A stretch of DNA of 64,000 nt from Catellatospora paridis (GTDB taxonomy: Bacteria; Actinomycetota; Actinomycetes; Mycobacteriales; Micromonosporaceae): positions 211,752 through 275,751 of the forward strand of contig NZ_ML769319.1 in NCBI RefSeq assembly GCF_009720365.1, written 5' to 3'. The notes under the pieces are model-generated. The model worked only from the letters and a program-made list of their open reading frames with translations. It was not told the DNA's origin and ran no database searches. The translations under genes were made by a program, and so were the position numbers. How positions within the stretch are numbered: the first letter of the stretch is position 1; every line of letters starts with the position of its first letter. Positions 54,484 through 64,000 of the stretch are shown here, one piece after another.

Positions 54484-55626
54484 TTAGCCGCGGGTGTGGG
54501 AGCCGAGCATGTGGACCTGGCCGGTGCCTTCGATGATGTCGCCGACGTGCCAGCACTCGACGCCGCGGCCGGTGAGCAGGGCCATGGCGCGGTCGGCGTC
54601 GGCGGCGGAGACGACGGCGAACATGCCGACGCCCATGTTGAAGGTCGACTCCAGGTCGTGCTGGTCGATGCGGCCCTTGCGCTGGATCAGGTCGAAGATG
54701 GGCTGGGGGGCCCAGGTGGAGCGGTTGACCGTCGCGTCGAGGTGCTTGGGCAGGACGCGGACCAGGTTGCCGGGGATGCCGCCGCCGGTGACGTGGGCGA
54801 ACGCGCGCACGTCGCACTCGGCGATCAGGCTGAGGCAGTCCTTGGCGTAGATCTTGGTGGGGGTCAGCAGCTCCTCGCCGAGGGTGCGCTGGTCGCCCAG
54901 GTCCTCGATGACGGAGTCGAGCTTCAGGCGGGCCTGGCCCAGGAGCACGTGGCGGACCAGCGAGTAGCCGTTGGAGTGCAGGCCGGACGAGCGCATCGCG
55001 ATGACCACGTCACCGGGCTGCACCCGCTCCGCGCCGAGGATCTCGTCCTCCTCGACGACGCCGACGCCGTTGGCCGACAGGTCGTACTCGTCCGGGCGCA
55101 TCAGGCCGGGGTGCTCGGCGGTCTCGCCGCCCAGCAGCGCGCACCCGGCGTAGCGGCAGCCGTCGGCGATGCCCGCGCCGATCTCGGCGACCCGGTCCGG
55201 CACGACCTCGCCGCAGGCGATGTAGTCGAGCAGGAACAGCGGCTCCGCGCCGCACGCGACCAGGTCGTCGACGACCATCGCGACCAGGTCGATGCCGACC
55301 GTGTCGTGGATGTTCATCTGCTGCGCGATGGCCAGCTTGGTGCCCACGCCGTCGGTCGACGAGGCCAGCACCGGGCTCTTGTACTTGGAGGTGTCGAGCT
55401 TGAACAGGCCGGAGAAACCACCGAGCCCGCCCAGCACCTCGGGACGGTGCGTCCGAGCGACCTTGCCCTTCAGCAGTTCCACCGCCTTGTCACCGGCGTG
55501 GATCGACACGCCCGCGTCGGCGTAGGTGACGGTGCGACGGCGGTTGGTGCTGCCACCCGCCGTCCACAGCTGACGGTCTCCGTTCTCCGGTTGCCCGGAG
55601 ACGGGGCGCTCGGTCACGTGCGTCAC
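54484..55626 (-). CDS. purM: Phosphoribosylformylglycinamidine cyclo-ligase
   Basis: PurM closes the imidazole ring to give AIR. The 380-aa product has SSTDGVGTKLAIAQQM, GIDLVAMVVDDLVACGAEPLF in part, CALLGGETAEHPGLM, and FAHVTGGGIPGNLVRVLP. A N-terminal extension of about 35 residues rich in polar residues precedes the core. GTG 55626 has GAGGAG 7 nt upstream. It lies downstream of purF on the same strand with a 65-nt gap, so they form an operon. Confidence 0.96.
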   Translation of the reverse strand: MTHVTERPVSGQPENGDRQLWTAGGSTNRRRTVTYADAGVSIHAGDKAVELLKGKVARTHRPEVLGGLGGFSGLFKLDTSKYKSPVLASSTDGVGTKLAIAQQMNIHDTVGIDLVAMVVDDLVACGAEPLFLLDYIACGEVVPDRVAEIGAGIADGCRYAGCALLGGETAEHPGLMRPDEYDLSANGVGVVEEDEILGAERVQPGDVVIAMRSSGLHSNGYSLVRHVLLGQARLKLDSVIEDLGDQRTLGEELLTPTKIYAKDCLSLIAECDVRAFAHVTGGGIPGNLVRVLPKHLDATVNRSTWAPQPIFDLIQRKGRIDQHDLESTFNMGVGMFAVVSAADADRAMALLTGRGVECWHVGDIIEGTGQVHMLGSHTRG

Positions 55627-55691
55627 GGTATTTCTCCTCTTGGTGCGCGGCACCGCTCTGGGAAGGGTCGGCGGTGCCGTGACGAGTGGTA

Positions 55692-57212
55692 CTAAGACCG
55701 GCTCAGTTCCGTGGACGGAGCTGGGACCTGGTCGCCGCTGAGCTCTTCGGACTCGACCCGGCGGCCGACCCCTTCGAGCACGTGTTTGCCGATCAGGTTG
55801 CTGGCCGGCAGCTTGATCGGGTATTCGCCGTCGAAGCAGGCCCGGCACAGGCGGTTCTTCGGCTGCTCGGAGGCGGCGATGAGCCCCTCCAGCGACACGT
55901 AGCCGAGCGAGTCGGCGCCGATGGAGCGGCGGATGCCCTCCATGTCCATGCCGTTCGCCAGCAGTTCGGCGCCGGTCGCGAAGTCGATGCCGTAGAAACA
56001 CGGCCACTTCACCGGCGGAGAGGAGATGCGCACGTGCACCTCCAGCGCGCCCGCCTCGCGCAGCATGCGCACGATGGCGCGCTGCGTGGTGCCGCGCACG
56101 ATGGAGTCGTCGACCACGACGAGGCGCTTGCCCCGCACGTTGTCGCGCAGCGGGTTCAGCTTGAGGCGGACGCCCAGCGCGCGGATGGTCTGCGACGGCT
56201 GGATGAAGGTGCGCCCGACGTAGGCGTTCTTCATGAGGCCCTGGCCGTAGGGGATGCCGGAAGCCTCCGCGTAGCCGATCGCGGCCGGGGTGCCCGACTC
56301 GGGCACCGGGATGACCAGATCGGCCTCGACCGGATGCTCGGCGGCCAGCCTGCGGCCGATCTCCACCCGGGTCGAGTAGATGTTGCGGCCGGAGATGGTC
56401 GCGTCCGGGCGGGCGAGGTAGACGTACTCGAACAGGCAGCCCTTGGGGTCCGGCGCGGCGAAGCGCGAGGAGCGCAGGCCGTATTCGTCGATGGCGATCA
56501 GCTCGCCGGGCTCGACCTCGCGGACCACGGAGGCGCCGACGATGTCCAGTGCCGCCTGCTCGCTCGCGACGACCCAGCCGCGCTCCAGCCGGCCCAGCAC
56601 CAGGGGGCGCACGCCGTGGTGGTCACGGGCGGCGTAGAGGGTGTTCTCGTCCATGAAGACGAAGCTGAACGCGCCCTCGACGGTCGGCAGCACCTTCATC
56701 GCGGCGGCTTCGACGGACAGGTCGGGGTGCCCGGCCAGCAGCATCGTCACCAGGCTGGTGTCGTTGGTGGAGCCGCGGCTGTCCATGCCGAGCTCGGCGG
56801 CGCGGCGGGCCAGGTCGGCGGTGTTCACCAGGTTGCCGTTGTGGGCCAGCGCGATTGTGGTGCCCGAGGTGGTCGACTGCAGCGTGGGCTGGGAGTTCTC
56901 CCAGGTCGAGTCGCCGGTGGTCGAGTAGCGCGCGTGCCCGATGGCGAGGTGCCCGCGCAGGCTGGCCAGCGTCGGCTCGTCGAAGACCTGGGCGACCAGG
57001 CCGACGTCCTTGTAGACCACCACGCCGGATCCGTCGCTCACCGCGATGCCGGCGGCCTCCTGGCCGCGGTGCTGCAGCGCGTACAGGCCGAAGTAGGTGA
57101 GCTTGGCAACCTCTTCACCAGGAGCCCAGACACCGAAGACGCCGCATGCGTCTTGCGGGCCTGGCCGGTGGGGGTCGAGTTCGTGGCTCAACCGGCCGTC
57201 GCCTCGGGGCAC
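55692..57212 (-). CDS. purF: Amidophosphoribosyltransferase
   Basis: PurF makes phosphoribosylamine from PRPP and glutamine. The 506-aa protein has a 22-residue propeptide before the nucleophile Cys23 in DACGVFGVWAPGEE, then YALQHRGQEAAGIAVSDG, and the PRPP loop VVVDDSIVRGTT. Four Cys in KGCLFEY, WPCFYGIDF and LCRACFDGEYP match the [4Fe-4S] ligands of Bacillus-type PurF, so an oxygen-sensitive cluster is likely. The start is GTG. First gene of the purF-purM unit. Confidence 0.97.
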   Translation of the reverse strand: MPRGDGRLSHELDPHRPGPQDACGVFGVWAPGEEVAKLTYFGLYALQHRGQEAAGIAVSDGSGVVVYKDVGLVAQVFDEPTLASLRGHLAIGHARYSTTGDSTWENSQPTLQSTTSGTTIALAHNGNLVNTADLARRAAELGMDSRGSTNDTSLVTMLLAGHPDLSVEAAAMKVLPTVEGAFSFVFMDENTLYAARDHHGVRPLVLGRLERGWVVASEQAALDIVGASVVREVEPGELIAIDEYGLRSSRFAAPDPKGCLFEYVYLARPDATISGRNIYSTRVEIGRRLAAEHPVEADLVIPVPESGTPAAIGYAEASGIPYGQGLMKNAYVGRTFIQPSQTIRALGVRLKLNPLRDNVRGKRLVVVDDSIVRGTTQRAIVRMLREAGALEVHVRISSPPVKWPCFYGIDFATGAELLANGMDMEGIRRSIGADSLGYVSLEGLIAASEQPKNRLCRACFDGEYPIKLPASNLIGKHVLEGVGRRVESEELSGDQVPAPSTELSRS

Positions 57213-57404
57213 CCTGTTGCTCCTTGCGCTTGTCGCTTCAGTAGCTGCCTAGATGCCCTGCTCAGTGAGCCGGCATCGGTGGTGTGTGTCGGCGTCCGGC
57301 GGCGATCGCCGCCGCAGCTCAGTGTACGTGACCCGGCAGGGTGGGCACCCCGGTGGCCGGGCTGTGTGCTACGTGACTGAATCCGGAACCCGCGGGTGGG
57401 CGGC

Positions 57405-57761
57405 CTAGACAATAGGGAAAAGGCTGCTGATATCGGAACGAATGCCGCTCGCGCGAATCCGCCCATCCGCCACCGCGGCCGCCCAATCCACCCGGCCCGC
57501 GGCGAGCTGAAGGAAGGTGACCGGATCGGTCTCGACGAGATTCGGTGGCGTGCCTCTCGTGTGCCTTGGCCCCTCGACGCACTGAATCGCGCCGTAAGGA
57601 GGAACACGCACCTCCACCGAACGGCCAGGTGCCGTGGCCGCAAGACGTGCCAACAATGCCCTAACCGCATCGCGGAGCGTCAAACGTTCCGGAGTCTGCC
57701 CGCTGGCCAGGCAGTCCAAAGCCGATGTCACGGCGGGGGAGATATCCGGCGAGGAGGACAT
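57405..57761 (-). CDS. Sterol-carrier-like small protein
   Basis: The 118-aa protein begins MSSSPDISPAVTSALDCLASG. It ends with an SCP/MDMPI-like segment: RSVEVRVPPYGAIQCVEG then ETDPVTFLQLAAGRVDWAAAVADGRI. This block resembles the short sterol-carrier family protein found beside purF in other actinobacteria. ATG 57761 is preferred; no strong ribosome site is seen. Function is unknown. Confidence 0.75.
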   Translation of the reverse strand: MSSSPDISPAVTSALDCLASGQTPERLTLRDAVRALLARLAATAPGRSVEVRVPPYGAIQCVEGPRHTRGTPPNLVETDPVTFLQLAAGRVDWAAAVADGRIRASGIRSDISSLFPIV

Positions 57762-57916
57762 AACCGGACGATACAAGATGACTTCCGCTCACTTTGTGGC
57801 GGCCCTGGGTCGCGCAACCCTTGCTTCGCAAGGCATAGTTGCGGTCGGTGTATTCCCGCAGCGCCCCCCACACCCCGATCGCTGTGGGATATCGAGGAGC
57901 TTGGAAGGCGGTGGCC

Positions 57917-59941
57917 GTGACTACCCAGCGACGGTCCTGGTTGGCACGCGTCGGAGTGGTAGCGATGGTGTCACTCGGCACTCTCATCGGCGTCACATCC
58001 CCAGCGCAAGCGGCACCCAGTGTCAGTGAACTTACGATCTCGCCCGGCTCCATCACGATTGATGCCGGCAGCGACGAGGTTGTGCAGGTCAACGCGAAAT
58101 CTGAGGACCCGGCAGGCGGCCCGGTGAGCGTTACCCTGGCAAGCCTTCCCGGCGGGCTCAGCAAGGACGGCGACTGTGTCGTCACCTTCGACGCCGGGGG
58201 CGGACCGGGGAATGCGAAGTCGGGTTCGTGCAACCTGAAGCTGAAGGCGTCGTCCAGTGCGGCCTCGATCGCGGGTGACGCTGTCACGGTGGTGCTGGGC
58301 AACCAGCAGAAGACGCTGACCGTCACGATCAAGGGCGCCACCCAGCAGGCGCCGGAGACCACCGGGAAGATCTCGGGTGTGGTTCGGGATCAGAAGACCG
58401 GTGACCCGATCAGCGGCGCACTCGTGGCGCTGTCCGACGGTGACGGCAAGGACTTCCCGACCAAGACGACGGGCGCGGCCGGCACCTTCCTGTTCGACCC
58501 GGCCAAGACCGGTGCGATCGCGCCGGGCCTGATCGTCGTCACGGTCAGCAAGGACCCGTACACGCTGAAGTCCGCGTCGGTGACCCTGAACGCCGGGCAG
58601 TCGAAGGCCGACGTCAACATCTCGATGGTCAACCCGAGCGCGACCGCGTCGCCGACCGCAGAGGTGACGCCGACCGGCGAGGAGAGCCCGGCCGCCGAGG
58701 AATCCGCCGACACCAGCGGCGAGGCCGTTGCCACCGACCCGGCCTCGAACGAGGAGGACAGCGGTCTCGGCACCATGACCTGGATCATGATCATCCTGGG
58801 TGGCCTGCTCGTCGCGCTGGGCATCGGCGCGATCGTCCTGCTCGTGATGAAGCGCGGCGGCGACGACGACGACGATGACGATGATGACGACGACGATGAC
58901 GACGACGAGCCGGTGCGCGGCCGTCCGGGCGTGCGGCCCGCGGCCCAGCCCGTTCGCGCGGGTGCCGGAGCCGGTACCTACGGCGGTGGCGGTGGCGGTG
59001 GCGCCTATGGCCGCCCCGCCGACCCGACCATGGTGGCCCGTCCGGGTGCCGACGCGACGGTGATGCACCGCCCCGGCGAGTACGGCGGCGTGCCCGCGCA
59101 GCGCGGCCCACAGCAGCCCTACGGCGCCCCGGCCCAGCCGACCCAGCAGTACGGCGGCGGCTACGGCTCGCCCGCGCAGCCGACCCAGTACGGCGGCTAC
59201 GACGGCCAGGCCGCAGGCGGCTACGGCTCCCCCGTCGCGCCGACGAGCGGCTACGGCAGCCCCGCGCCCACCAGCGGCTACGGCAGCCCCGCGCCCACCA
59301 GCGGTTACGGCAGCCCGGCCCCGACCTCGGGCTACGGCAGCCCGGCCCCGACGTCCGGTTACGGCGGCGCCGCGCCGACGTCCGGTTACGGCGGCTCCCC
59401 GGCCGACGCCTACGGTTCGACCACCCCGACCTCCGGCTACAGCGGCGGGCAGCCCAGCTACGACCAGGGCTACGGCCAGCAGGCCGGCTACGGCGAGCAG
59501 CAGGGCTACGGCCAGCAGGCGGGCTACGGCCAGCAGCAGGGCTACCAGGGCCAGTACGACGAGCCCACGCACTACGCGGGCCCGACGTCCGGCGGCAGCG
59601 CCTACGGCCAGCAGCCGGGCGGGTACGGCCAGCAGCAGCCGGGCTACGGCCAGGAGCCGTACGGCCAGCAGGCCGGCGGCTACGGCCAGCAGGACCCGTA
59701 CGGCGCTCAGCAGCCCGCCGGGTACGGCCAGCAGCAGCCCGGTTACGGGCAGCAGGACCCGTACGGCGCCCAGGCCGGCTACGGCCAGCAGCAGGACCCG
59801 TACGGCACCCCGCCGGCCGCCGATTACGGCCAGCAGGACCCGTACGGCGCCCAGGGCGGCTACGGCCAGCAGGGCAGCGGTTACCACGACGACCGCCGCA
59901 GCAACCGGGACAACCGCCGTCTCGACTGGCTCGACGACTGA
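57917..59941 (+). CDS. Membrane protein with CnaB-like domain, Asp15 tract and FUS-like low-complexity tail
   Basis: The 674-aa protein has a Sec signal (about residues 1-35, ending SPAQAAPS), an extracytoplasmic beta domain, and a carboxypeptidase-regulatory/CnaB-like domain with [21 protein letters not shown] Pro/Thr/Glu linker and one membrane helix (about residues 286-308, [20 protein letters not shown]) follow. A stop-transfer KR precedes 15 consecutive Asp (316-330). The cytoplasmic tail of about 340 residues is almost only G, Y, Q, P, S, A and D. It contains five tandem SGYGSPAPT-type units and many YGQQ, GYGQQ and DPYGAQ steps, and it ends in a basic/acidic [20 protein letters not shown] 57917 is 8 nt after GGAAGG. 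I know no named function. Confidence 0.88.
59241..59399 (+). repeat. 27-bp tandem repeats encoding SGYGSPAPT units
   Basis: About five to six 27-bp units encode nine-residue periods (SGYGSPAPT, later SGYGGAAPT). Several adjacent units are nearly identical at the DNA level, with drift at third positions. Confidence 0.85.
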
Positions 59942-59960
59942 TCGTCAGCACTCGTGAACA

Positions 59961-59995
59961 GCAGACGCCCTCCGGAGTTCCCGGGGGGCGTCTGC
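59961..59995 (+). terminator. Hairpin terminator after low-complexity gene
   Basis: GCAGACGCCC (59961-59970) pairs with GGGCGTCTGC (59986-59995); an inner CCGG pair extends it. It separates the low-complexity gene from the radical-SAM gene 88 nt downstream. Confidence 0.8.
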
Positions 59996-60082
59996 GTGTG
60001 CGGGGCCCGTTGCGCGGCGTGTCGGGACGCACCGGGCGGGAGTGAGGAGACAGAAGGCGGCGCGGTTTGCTGGAATGGTGGG

Positions 60083-61189
60083 GTGGCCGTCGTCAACGGC
60101 ATGCGCGGGGTCTCCCGCGTGCCGGCATATGTGGTGATGCAGCCCACGACCCTGTGCAACCTGGACTGCGTCTACTGCTACCTGCCCCTGCGTGCGCAGG
60201 ACCGCCGGATGCCGGTGGAGGTGGCGCGGGCGGTGGCGGCCGATGCGAACGTCTGGGCGGCCCGGGACCGCTTCTCGGTGGTGTGGCACGGGGGTGAGCC
60301 CCTTGCGGCCGGCAGGGAGCATCTGGGGGCGCTGATGGCCCCTTTCGGGCCCGCGGTGGAACAGCACGTGCAGACCAACGCGACGCTGCTGGACGACGCC
60401 TGGTGCGAGTTCTTCGCCGCCCGCGGGGTGCGGGTGAGCGTGAGCGTGGACGGGCCCGAGGACCTCAACGGGCAGCGGGTCTCGCGCGCGGGGCGGCCCG
60501 CGTACGCCCGGATCGCAAAGGGGATCGCGGCGCTGCGCCGGCACGGCCAGCCGTTCGCCGCGCTGTGCGTGGTGGGTGATCCGCGACCGGGCGTGGCGGC
60601 CCGGCTCTACGAGTACTTCCTGACGCTGGGCTGCGACACGCTCGGCGTCAACATCGAGGAGCGGGAGGGCGTCAACGAGCGCCCCAACTCCCATGATCCG
60701 GAAGCGGTGCGGGCCTTCTGGGCCGAGCTGGTCGCGGCGTGGCGCGCCGACCCGCGGATCCACGTCCGCGAGCTGGAGTGGAGCCTGCGCTATGTCGGCG
60801 CGGTGCTCGACGGCACGTCCGGCGACCTGCTGCCGCGTGAGCTGGACCCGATTCCGACCGTCGGGTATGACGGCGCGGTGGTGCTGCTCTCGCCGGAGCT
60901 GGCGGGCTTCCACGACCCGGTGCACGGCGACTTCAGCAGCGGCAACGTGCTGCAGGCCCCGCTGTCGGAGCTGCTGACCGAGCCGCGGCGCACCAGCTGG
61001 GTGCCGGAGTTCCTCAGCGGGGTCGAGGCATGCCGGGACACCTGCCCGTACTTCGGCTTCTGCGGCGGCGGGCACGCCGCCAACCGGTACTTCGAGCACG
61101 GAAGGTTCGACGGCACGGAGACCGAGCACTGCCGCAACAGCAAGATCCATCTACTGGAGGGAGTGCTCGACCATGTCCGAAGCTCTTGA
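60083..61189 (+). CDS. amcB: Radical-SAM/SPASM cyclophane-forming RiPP maturase (AmcB-like)
   Basis: The 368-aa enzyme has the radical-SAM [4Fe-4S] motif C-x3-C-x2-C (Cys25, 29, 32 in TLCNLDCVYCY), HGGEPL for SAM binding, QTNATLL and VSVDGPEDLNGQR. A C-terminal SPASM-like domain has CRDTCPYFGFCGGGHAANRYF and a later HCRNSK. It overlaps a 61-aa gene whose product ends in repeated aromatic-x-Asn triads. Enzymes of this class (3-residue cyclophane-forming, FxsB/GrrM-related) join the aromatic ring to the beta-carbon of the third residue. GTG 60083 is used; ATG 60101 is also possible. The AmcB label rests on the precursor match and is tentative. Confidence 0.85.
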   Translation: MAVVNGMRGVSRVPAYVVMQPTTLCNLDCVYCYLPLRAQDRRMPVEVARAVAADANVWAARDRFSVVWHGGEPLAAGREHLGALMAPFGPAVEQHVQTNATLLDDAWCEFFAARGVRVSVSVDGPEDLNGQRVSRAGRPAYARIAKGIAALRRHGQPFAALCVVGDPRPGVAARLYEYFLTLGCDTLGVNIEEREGVNERPNSHDPEAVRAFWAELVAAWRADPRIHVRELEWSLRYVGAVLDGTSGDLLPRELDPIPTVGYDGAVVLLSPELAGFHDPVHGDFSSGNVLQAPLSELLTEPRRTSWVPEFLSGVEACRDTCPYFGFCGGGHAANRYFEHGRFDGTETEHCRNSKIHLLEGVLDHVRSS

Positions 61190-61358
61190 GGACCGGATCC
61201 GCGACGCGCGTGGCGAACTGGCTCCCCTGCTGGAGGAGGCCCGGCTCGCACGACTGGCCCGAAGCGAAGTGCCAGGCGCAGACAGCACGGCTGTCTGCGC
61301 CTGGAACCACTTCGAGAACATCCCGACGTTCTTCAACTGGAACAACCGGCCGCGCTGA
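61173..61358 (+). CDS. amcA: Cyclophane RiPP precursor peptide (AmcA-like), 61 aa
   Basis: The peptide starts MSEALEDRIRDARGELAPLL, a charged helical leader. A short linker with PGADSTAV follows, then a core from about Cys42: CAWNHFENIPTFFNWNNRPR. The core has the aromatic-x-Asn triads F47-E-N49, F53-F-N55 and W56-N-N58, plus W44-N-H46. These are typical sites for three-residue cyclophane cross-links. GGAGGGAG lies 8 nt before the ATG, and the gene overlaps its maturase by 17 nt. A 22-bp hairpin lies at the leader-core junction (61265-61314). No protease or transporter is adjacent, so how the product leaves the cell is unknown. Confidence 0.85.
   Translation: MSEALEDRIRDARGELAPLLEEARLARLARSEVPGADSTAVCAWNHFENIPTFFNWNNRPR
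61265..61314. repeat. Long hairpin inside the precursor-peptide gene
   Basis: The 15-nt perfect arms CCAGGCGCAGACAGC (61272-61286) and complement (61290-61304) have a 3-nt loop. A further 7-bp pair (61265-61271 with 61308-61314) lies outside a 3-nt bulge. It is contained in the coding sequence, from residues 31 to 47. Confidence 0.9.
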
Positions 61359-61378
61359 GACGGCGGTCGTTCAGGAAG

Positions 61379-61627
61379 TCAGCGGCGGGGAGTCCAGTCC
61401 TTACCGTCGTCTTCATCGTCGTCGTCGACGGCGTAGTTCCCGTACGGGTCGTACGGATCCGGCTCGTCGTCTTCGCGCTGATCCTCGACAACAGCACTGC
61501 CGCTGCCGCTGCTGAGCTCGCTACCGGCAAGCTCGCGCTGCAAGGCGGCGAGGTCGGTGTTCGGGGAGTGGTACTTCAACTCCCGGGCCACCTTAGTCTG
61601 CTTGGCCTTAGCTCGGCCGCGCCCCAT
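61379..61627 (-). CDS. DUF3073 family protein (82 aa)
   Basis: The protein begins MGRGRAKAKQTKVARELKYHS, the DUF3073 hallmark, and continues with PNTDLAALQRELAG. A very acidic tail (VDDDDEDDGKDW) closes it. DUF3073 is conserved in actinobacteria and usually lies near the branched-chain amino-acid dehydrogenase and purine genes, as here. Function is unknown. It converges on the RiPP precursor gene with a 20-nt gap. Confidence 0.93.
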   Translation of the reverse strand: MGRGRAKAKQTKVARELKYHSPNTDLAALQRELAGSELSSGSGSAVVEDQREDDEPDPYDPYGNYAVDDDDEDDGKDWTPRR

Positions 61628-61946
61628 GGCCGACCCCCTCGCACATGAATGACGGGGCTACCCGAAGGCGGGCCCCGATGACGTCAGACATCTCTCGTGG
61701 GTCATACGGTACATGGGAGGAGGCCACTTCGGCATCTCGGGTTACCGGGTGTCTGGCAGCACATCGGAACCTGTCCGTTTTATTACTGGTAAGGAGTATA
61801 TCCCTCCCCAGTAATGACGGCCCAGCCTCCGGACCAGCGCCGGAATCCGTCCTTGATCGCAGAAGTTGCCTGGCAATCGGGCGAATGACTGCTCAAGATA
61901 CGCACGATTGCCAGGCAACTCGAATGATCTAGATCCGGGCGTGGCG
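61628..61946. other. 319-bp gap with a hairpin repeat
   Basis: The gap upstream of DUF3073 and downstream of the dehydrogenase gene holds the DUF3073 promoter region, a locally AT-richer stretch (61775-61800, TTTTATTACTGG) and the hairpin at 61851-61930. No gene was seen. Confidence 0.5.
61851..61930. repeat. GTTGCCTGGCA hairpin family, copy 3
   Basis: The 16-nt perfect arms AGTTGCCTGGCAATCG (61864-61879) and complement (61905-61920) flank a loop carrying TCAAGATACGCAC. That loop sequence is the exact complement of a 13-mer in the copy at 31371-31449. Confidence 0.85.
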
Positions 61947-63050
<1,104 letters not shown>

Positions 63051-63132
63051 CCTGCTCGGTCTTTCCGAGGGGTCGGGCGACGCCGCGGTAGCGACGCTCC
63101 CGCTGACAGCCTAATCGTGGGAGGATCGCGAG

Positions 63133-63960
63133 GTGCCGTCACAGTTCGCCGCGTACCTGAGGGTCTACGAGCCGCTCACCGCGTTCGCGCCGGAACGTGA
63201 GCGATTCTGGCGCCGCTACGTCGACGAGGGGCGCGCTGTAGGCGTGTCCGACGGGCCCGGCCGCCAGCGGGCGACCGTGCTCGAAGCGCTCGGCGCGGGC
63301 TGGTCGCGGCTGCCGGACCTGCCCGATGAGGCGTACGTCATGCAGGGGCTGACCGGGCAGACCGAGGTGACCCTGGTCTGCCCCTGGAACCTGCGGGTCC
63401 GGGTGGCCGAGGCGGCGCTGCAGGCGCGCGACGGGGTGCCGCAGGTGCTGGCCGACGCGTTCGTGCCGCCGGTGCTGGTGGACCTGGCGCAGACCGTGGT
63501 CGAGCAGACCCGGGCCGAGGACCGCATGCACGAGCAGGTCGCCACCTGGGGCGTGCCGCTGCGCTGGTTCGTGCTGGTCTCCCCGGCGGAGCGCGACCTG
63601 GTGCTCGAACCGACCCGCCGGGTGCTGCGCTACCGCACCGAGATCGGCAAGGCCCGCCAGCGGGCCCACAAGGGGCTGCGCGTGCTGCGCCGGACCCTGG
63701 GCGACGTGCCCATCACCGACTCGCTGCGGGAGACCGCCCGCTGGCTGGAGTCGTTCCACCCCGGCTCGGTGGTGGAGCTGGACTACGGCGGCCTCACCGG
63801 CCTGCTTCCCGAGGAAGCGCTGCGCGACGACGACTCCGTCGAGCTGGTCGCCACGGGTCTGGCCGGGCTGGAGCGCGAGGACGGCGACGCCGCCACGGCG
63901 GCGTACGAGCAGCTCGTGCAGCGGTGGCGGGCGATCCAGCTGATGGAGCGAAGCAACTGA
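63133..63960 (+). CDS. Conserved hypothetical protein (DUF8083-like), bldC neighbour
   Basis: The 275-aa soluble protein begins PSQFAAYLRVYEPLTAFAPE and includes RFWRRYVDEG, VTLVCPWNLRVRVAEAAL and WGVPLRWFVLVSPAERDL. It is conserved in actinobacteria between the branched-chain dehydrogenase and bldC, from memory of Streptomyces synteny. No catalytic motif is visible. GTG 63133 follows GGGAGGATCGCGAGG. Confidence 0.8.
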   Translation: MPSQFAAYLRVYEPLTAFAPERERFWRRYVDEGRAVGVSDGPGRQRATVLEALGAGWSRLPDLPDEAYVMQGLTGQTEVTLVCPWNLRVRVAEAALQARDGVPQVLADAFVPPVLVDLAQTVVEQTRAEDRMHEQVATWGVPLRWFVLVSPAERDLVLEPTRRVLRYRTEIGKARQRAHKGLRVLRRTLGDVPITDSLRETARWLESFHPGSVVELDYGGLTGLLPEEALRDDDSVELVATGLAGLEREDGDAATAAYEQLVQRWRAIQLMERSN

Positions 63961-63971
63961 CAGTGAGTAGT

Positions 63972-63998
63972 TTTCGAGTAACTTTCAGTGATCGAAAG
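63972..63998. promoter_or_regulatory. TTTCGA / TCGAAA inverted repeat at window end
   Basis: TTTCGA (63972-63977) and TCGAAA (63992-63997) form an inverted repeat, overlapping CTTTC/GAAAG. It lies downstream of the last gene, where the bldC promoter would be expected. The window ends here, so its context is not visible. Confidence 0.35.
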
Positions 63999-64000
63999 CT

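Follow-up and report, generated by a model that had tools for sequence, protein, structure and literature searches.

RiPPs have mostly been studied as fast-evolving weapons. Characterised enzymes of the cyclophane-forming kind join a Phe or Trp to the residue two places further on, an Asn, Asp, Arg or Ser, through the beta-carbon of the latter, and one of these enzymes, OscB, makes three-residue cyclophanes, according to the available part of PMC11002830. Network clusters with Aro-Xaa-Asn peptides are mentioned in the available part of PMC9062424, and these clusters might include the AmcA/AmcB family, for which a search of the open-access literature (subscription papers lying outside it) found no paper. 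The kind itself is already named, with models for the enzyme AmcB (NF041718) and for the precursor peptide AmcA of type 1 (NF041721), type 3a (NF041722) and type 3b (NF041723), and what is new here is the comparison across the family.

The window, by which we mean the whole 64,000-nt stretch of Catellatospora paridis DNA that was analysed, holds such a gene pair (Table 1). Its 368-aa enzyme scored 502.7 bits against NF041718 (curated equivalog cut-off 425) and its 61-aa peptide scored 109.0 bits against NF041722 (curated equivalog cut-off 65), and these homology scores identify the two products as AmcB and AmcA type 3a, whose two-gene layout the pair also shares. A sequence-only reading of this locus had described a radical-SAM/SPASM enzyme whose frame overlaps by 17 nt with a 61-aa gene behind a strong ribosome site, and had offered AmcA/AmcB as a lead: both frames do read with that 17-nt overlap, the site is GGAGGGAG, 9 nt before the amcA ATG, and the lead was right, as both proteins exceed their equivalog cut-offs. 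Translation of amcB may begin at the GTG or, in the same frame, at an ATG at 60101, so its start is uncertain. The second-best model for the enzyme was GrrM/OscB (TIGR04261), with a nearly full-length match that stayed under the cut-off (228.8 bits for 310), while FxsB (TIGR04269) gave 87 bits for a cut-off of 370; the Pfam Radical_SAM match reached 60.3 bits. A genome-wide search for a second AmcB returned just two weak radical-SAM matches, both under the cut-off, and comparably weak matches turned up in 12 of the 14 unrelated genomes used as controls. A scan of 59900-61700 for sigma-70 types only found no consensus promoter or terminator. Just behind the gene upstream, a 15-nt inverted repeat lies at 59961-59995; it has no T tail and was not called a terminator.

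Table 1. Features of the amcBA locus and its surroundings (window coordinates)
Feature	Position	Strand	Remarks
amcB, cyclophane-forming radical-SAM/SPASM-type maturase (putative), 368 aa	60083..61189	+	GTG start; NF041718 502.7 bits
CxxxCxxC, Cys25/29/32, expected SAM-binding [4Fe-4S] cluster ligands	60155..60178	+	invariant in 116/116 rows
Auxiliary-cluster (SPASM-like) Cys317, 321, 327, 350, C-terminal	61031..61132	+	invariant in 116/116 rows
amcA ribosome-binding site GGAGGGAG, inside amcB	61156..61163	+	read from sequence; 9 nt 5' of amcA ATG
amcA, precursor peptide type 3a, 61 aa	61173..61358	+	ATG start; NF041722 109.0 bits
amcA leader, residues 1-39, variable	61173..61289	+	median 41% identity to window
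Hairpin, 21 pairs, spanning leader/core boundary of amcA	61266..61313	+	seen in Catellatospora, not family-wide
Invariant block AVCAWNHFENIPTF[FY]NWNNRPR, residues 40-61	61290..61355	+	100/112 AmcB loci
W44-N-H46, possible fourth triad, doubtful	61302..61310	+	invariant in 3a; W-R-P/W-R-A/absent in 3b, 3c
Triad 1, F47-E-N49, predicted ring 1	61311..61319	+	F-E-D, F-S-D, W-T-D in orthologous forms
Triad 2, F53-F-N55, predicted ring 2	61329..61337	+	relatives: F-Y-N, F-Y-Q, F-Y-E, F-W-E, F-T-E
Triad 3, W56-N-N58, predicted ring 3	61338..61346	+	F-T-N, F-S-N in orthologous forms
purM-like (AIR synthase) frame	54484-56007	-	Pfam AIRS/AIRS_C; start unsettled, gene name putative
purF-like frame	55692-57212	-	Pfam GATase_6/GATase_7; start unsettled, gene name putative
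DUF3073 gene, syntenic neighbour	61379..61627	-	PF11273 82.4 bits
Glu/Leu/Phe/Val-type dehydrogenase, syntenic neighbour	61947..63050	-	PF02812 106.3 bits

The cysteines and the HGGEPL motif named from the sequence are all present in AmcB, the latter as H69-G-G-E-P-L74, and Cys25, 29, 32, 108, 317, 321, 327 and 350 are unvarying in all 116 rows of an alignment made of the window and 115 distinct relatives (their neighbouring peptide being type 3a in 96, type 1 in 13 and type 3b in 6), from which rows with stops or shorter than 330 aa were left out. We take Cys317, 321, 327 and 350 to be SPASM cluster ligands. The nearest named AmcB, from C. sichuanensis, is 96% identical, and by sequence ChlB and an anaerobic sulfatase maturase come nearest among solved proteins. 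The predicted fold (AlphaFold; pTM 0.75) is closest to that of ChlB in complex with the leader of its substrate (9gm3, TM 0.65); as the mean pLDDT is 70.4 and the cluster loop, residues 23-38, lies below 50, this model was used for the fold alone.

Triceptide precursors are recognised by aromatic-x-x3 triads, and AmcA holds three aromatic-x-Asn triads at F47-E-N49, F53-F-N55 and W56-N-N58, preceded by W44-N-H46, all of which read as originally claimed. Shuffling the whole peptide reached three such triads in 237 of 100,000 cases, and shuffling just the 22-residue core did so in 4.8%; the count by itself is moderately unusual and no more, so it is the AmcA/AmcB homology scores that decide the case.

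Using the 3a model, we found AmcA type 3a over the cut-off in 143 of 200 Micromonosporaceae genomes, the source genome included. A pattern search run apart from the model search, covering residues 44-58 only and allowing F or Y at residue 54, found the exact stretch WNHFENIPTF[FY]NWNN in 143 of the 200 genomes and in 24 of 44 genera, and the reversed control pattern had zero matches in the 200 genomes. Placed side by side, the two tables list the same 143 genomes, so that no 3a peptide over the cut-off deviates from this stretch. Relative to the type 3a members seen, the window core differs just by F for Y at residue 54, an F that is common to the other Catellatospora and a few more. Leader identity to the window had a median of 41% over 89 distinct 3a peptides, window included. 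The sequence-only reading had proposed comparing the layout across Micromonosporaceae and had named, as the outcome that would count against it, a lack of homologues in which a conserved aromatic-x-Asn core lies by a radical-SAM gene; the outcome was the opposite, since 100 of 112 loci hold a peptide with AVCAWNHFENIPTF[FY]NWNNRPR beside AmcB and the other 12 one with a type-1-like core. These loci were chosen for having two or more [FWYH]-x-Asn motifs near AmcB; L001 and L002 among them are one gene, and some genomes are counted twice. A separate figure of 100/100 for core invariance came from peptides selected by a pattern containing that core; it is circular and was not used, the set of 112 loci and the paired 143-genome tables being fairer tests. 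Across the class, the 3a model matched in 3 of 394 genomes, all three of them Micromonosporaceae.

Other core forms occur at the same place. Type 3b shares the locus, the enzyme family and three corresponding triads with type 3a and differs in its core, such as WRPFEDAFPTFYQFTNRPR, in which the third residues are Asp and Gln/Glu and Cys42 and W-N-H are missing. It was over its cut-off in 11 of the 200 genomes, none among the 143 with 3a, and the further six genomes that reach E 0.001 with the 3a model are type 3b. All eight type 3b neighbourhoods with flanks (L119-L124, L126, L127) retain the same-block neighbours; the right-hand part is inverted in L126 and L127, and no DUF3073 gene was detected in L126. 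A third form, here called 3c (GAPRWTDVFTTQFTEFSNRPR), was seen in three genomes of one genus (L181, L185, L196), and its gene pair lies at the same chromosomal place in the two of these three that have enough flank. Two 3c peptides were scanned: one reached 21.5 bits with the 3b model, short of its cut-off of 65, and the other had no match among the NCBIfam models. The enzymes that go with these two peptides score as AmcB (481.9 and 489.1 bits). Type 1 peptides go with the same enzyme model and carry repeated aromatic-Asp-Asn triads, but their AmcB paralogues are about 40% identical and fall in a separate clade; one of three type-1-like peptides scanned was over the NF041721 cut-off and two were under it. 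In an AmcB tree built from 38 chosen rows, type 3a formed one group (support 94/98) and the type 1 paralogues a separate clade (100/100); type 3b did not form one group, and 3c did but comprises just two distinct sequences.

These orthologous forms bear directly on the number of rings. With the 3c triads aligned to the other forms by hand, triad 1 reads F-E-N, F-E-D, F-S-D or W-T-D, triad 2 reads F-[FY]-N, F-Y-Q, F-Y-E, F-W-E or F-T-E, and triad 3 reads W-N-N, F-T-N or F-S-N, so that across 3a, 3b and 3c the first residue is always aromatic and the third is N, D, Q or E while the middle one drifts. By analogy with the characterised enzymes, this is the pattern expected of links from an aromatic ring to a beta-carbon; Gln and Glu are absent from the partners named in the available part of PMC11002830. 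The place of W44-N-H46 reads W-R-P, W-R-A or a non-aromatic stretch (GPRP, APR) in 3b and 3c, whose linker has one additional aromatic-x-Thr (F-P-T, F-T-T). Since three triads persist through the 3b and 3c replacements whereas W44-x-H46 does not, three predicted rings are supported for the shared product and a fourth is doubtful. The earlier claim of at least three triads is thus backed by natural variants at triads 1-3, while its suggestion of a fourth ring at W44-x-H46 holds up only in that neither W44 nor H46 varies among the 3a cores seen. Four predicted rings in 3a, with W44-N-H46 also linked and two adjacent pairs arranged as [WNH][FEN]-IPT-[FFN][WNN], would fit this invariance and the symmetric spacing, but the orthologous peptides at the same locus lack the motif, and in the characterised cases His is the ring-bearing first residue rather than the third (available part of PMC11002830). 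We consider this fourth ring unlikely; it would add to the three-ring explanation without excluding it. Invariance within 3a also spans residues outside the triads (A40-A43, I50-T52 and R59-R61) and hence singles out no ring positions.

AmcA/AmcB is very probably a cyclophane (triceptide-type) system. Its genes, family membership, motif conservation, distribution and synteny are shown directly, and its chemistry, ring number and processing we infer as follows. AmcB would bind the AmcA leader and generate from SAM a 5'-deoxyadenosyl radical, which would abstract hydrogen at the third residue of a triad, from its beta-carbon; the resulting carbon radical would attack the first residue's aromatic ring, with the auxiliary iron-sulfur cluster taking up the electron. 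Rings would form at least at F47-E-N49, F53-F-N55 and W56-N-N58, with an expected change of -6 Da for three. A protease with its gene at another locus would then cut off the leader, unless the peptide is left uncleaved.

The gene pair adjoins the DUF3073 gene and the amino-acid dehydrogenase gene in 80 of 80 named loci. On the other side, most relatives have the purM- and purF-like frames immediately upstream of amcB and in its orientation: purM is so placed, at about 82-354 nt, in 73 of the 79 loci where it was found, and the remaining six, which are five Catellatospora loci and Catelliglobosispora, have the purM block turned round; because of this inversion, amcBA in these two genera no longer stands behind purM. 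In the window, the purF-purM block is inverted together with a repeat-rich membrane-protein gene (54484-59941) relative to most Micromonosporaceae loci seen. This large gene (57839-59941) has a CarboxypepD_reg domain, and by eye its product probably has a membrane segment; it also contains an Asp-rich run and numerous repeats rich in Tyr and Gly. Neither a 3a, a 3b nor a 3c peptide was found in 43 of the 200 genomes, some of whose assemblies are incomplete. When 20 genomes without 3a or 3b were searched for the dehydrogenase, 19 had it; among 15 of these 19 neighbourhoods, two (L181, L185) hold the 3c pair and 13 have no amcB in the stretch examined, which in one of them (L183) ends at a contig end. 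Since both flanks, purM and DUF3073, are kept with no amcB between them in L179, L180 and L184, amcAB is common but dispensable.

A hairpin in the amcA message was considered as an RNA element. Folding of 61240-61340 gave -49.2 kcal/mol (z -5.3 against dinucleotide shuffles). When a 54-nt stretch was compared with synonymous shuffles, 11 of 11 Catellatospora loci, a set in which two share the same sequence over this stretch, gave z values for the hairpin between -2.1 and -4.6, and the two closest outgroups gave -0.7 and -1.5. Over a longer stretch in 91 distinct relatives the mean z was -0.04, and the Catellatospora locus L036 had just -0.6. Covariation was slight: both partners had changed in two pairs, a count that 23 of 500 shuffles reached, and 4 of 500 shuffles reached the covariation score, but a register slid by -3 did better than the hairpin register on both pair changes and covariation score. 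Rfam models matched nothing in 57000-64000. On these results, the idea of an RNA element at this boundary shared by the whole family was rejected.

Neither an exporter nor a protease was recognised among six window proteins and four frames covering about 54.4-64.0 kb (the window end), or among eight frames around L040, three of which matched no family, in keeping with the earlier remark that none is adjacent. An immunity gene could have escaped these neighbour scans.

Ribosomal cofactors such as PQQ and mycofactocin may offer a comparison for the role of AmcA. The invariant core, the fixed locus, the syntenic inheritance and neighbour scans in which no exporter or protease was recognised make a physiological or signalling role more likely than an antibiotic one. 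At about even odds (roughly 0.5), we propose that type 3 AmcA may be a physiological peptide of the Micromonosporaceae (a hormone-like signal, a metal binder or a cofactor) whose three-ring structure would be fixed by selection, while 3a, 3b and 3c would be redesigns that nature has made of the same product at a single locus; such a fixed-structure peptide seems likelier than a diversifying antibiotic. Darobactin and dynobactin, products of related ring-forming radical-SAM enzymes, are antibacterial (available parts of PMC9055067 and PMC11002830, respectively), which would speak for an antimicrobial or competition peptide like the darobactin-type RiPPs, but the absence of a recognised exporter or protease among the scanned neighbours, the lack of core diversification within 3a and the syntenic inheritance make this improbable. 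AmcA might also be kept unreleased and work through its cyclophane region, either as a small protein that binds metal or has a redox function or as the precursor of a cofactor: no protease was recognised nearby and the invariant block of 3a includes Cys42 and His46, yet both residues are absent from the 3b and 3c cores seen, and we hold this option to be doubtful, if somewhat less so than the antimicrobial one.

With the same 15-residue centre, apart from F or Y at residue 54, recurring in 143 of 200 genomes and 24 genera at one core locus, this predicted ring-bearing peptide lets a physiological role be asked about directly, and the orthologous core forms provide a natural mutant series for finding the residues that AmcB links.
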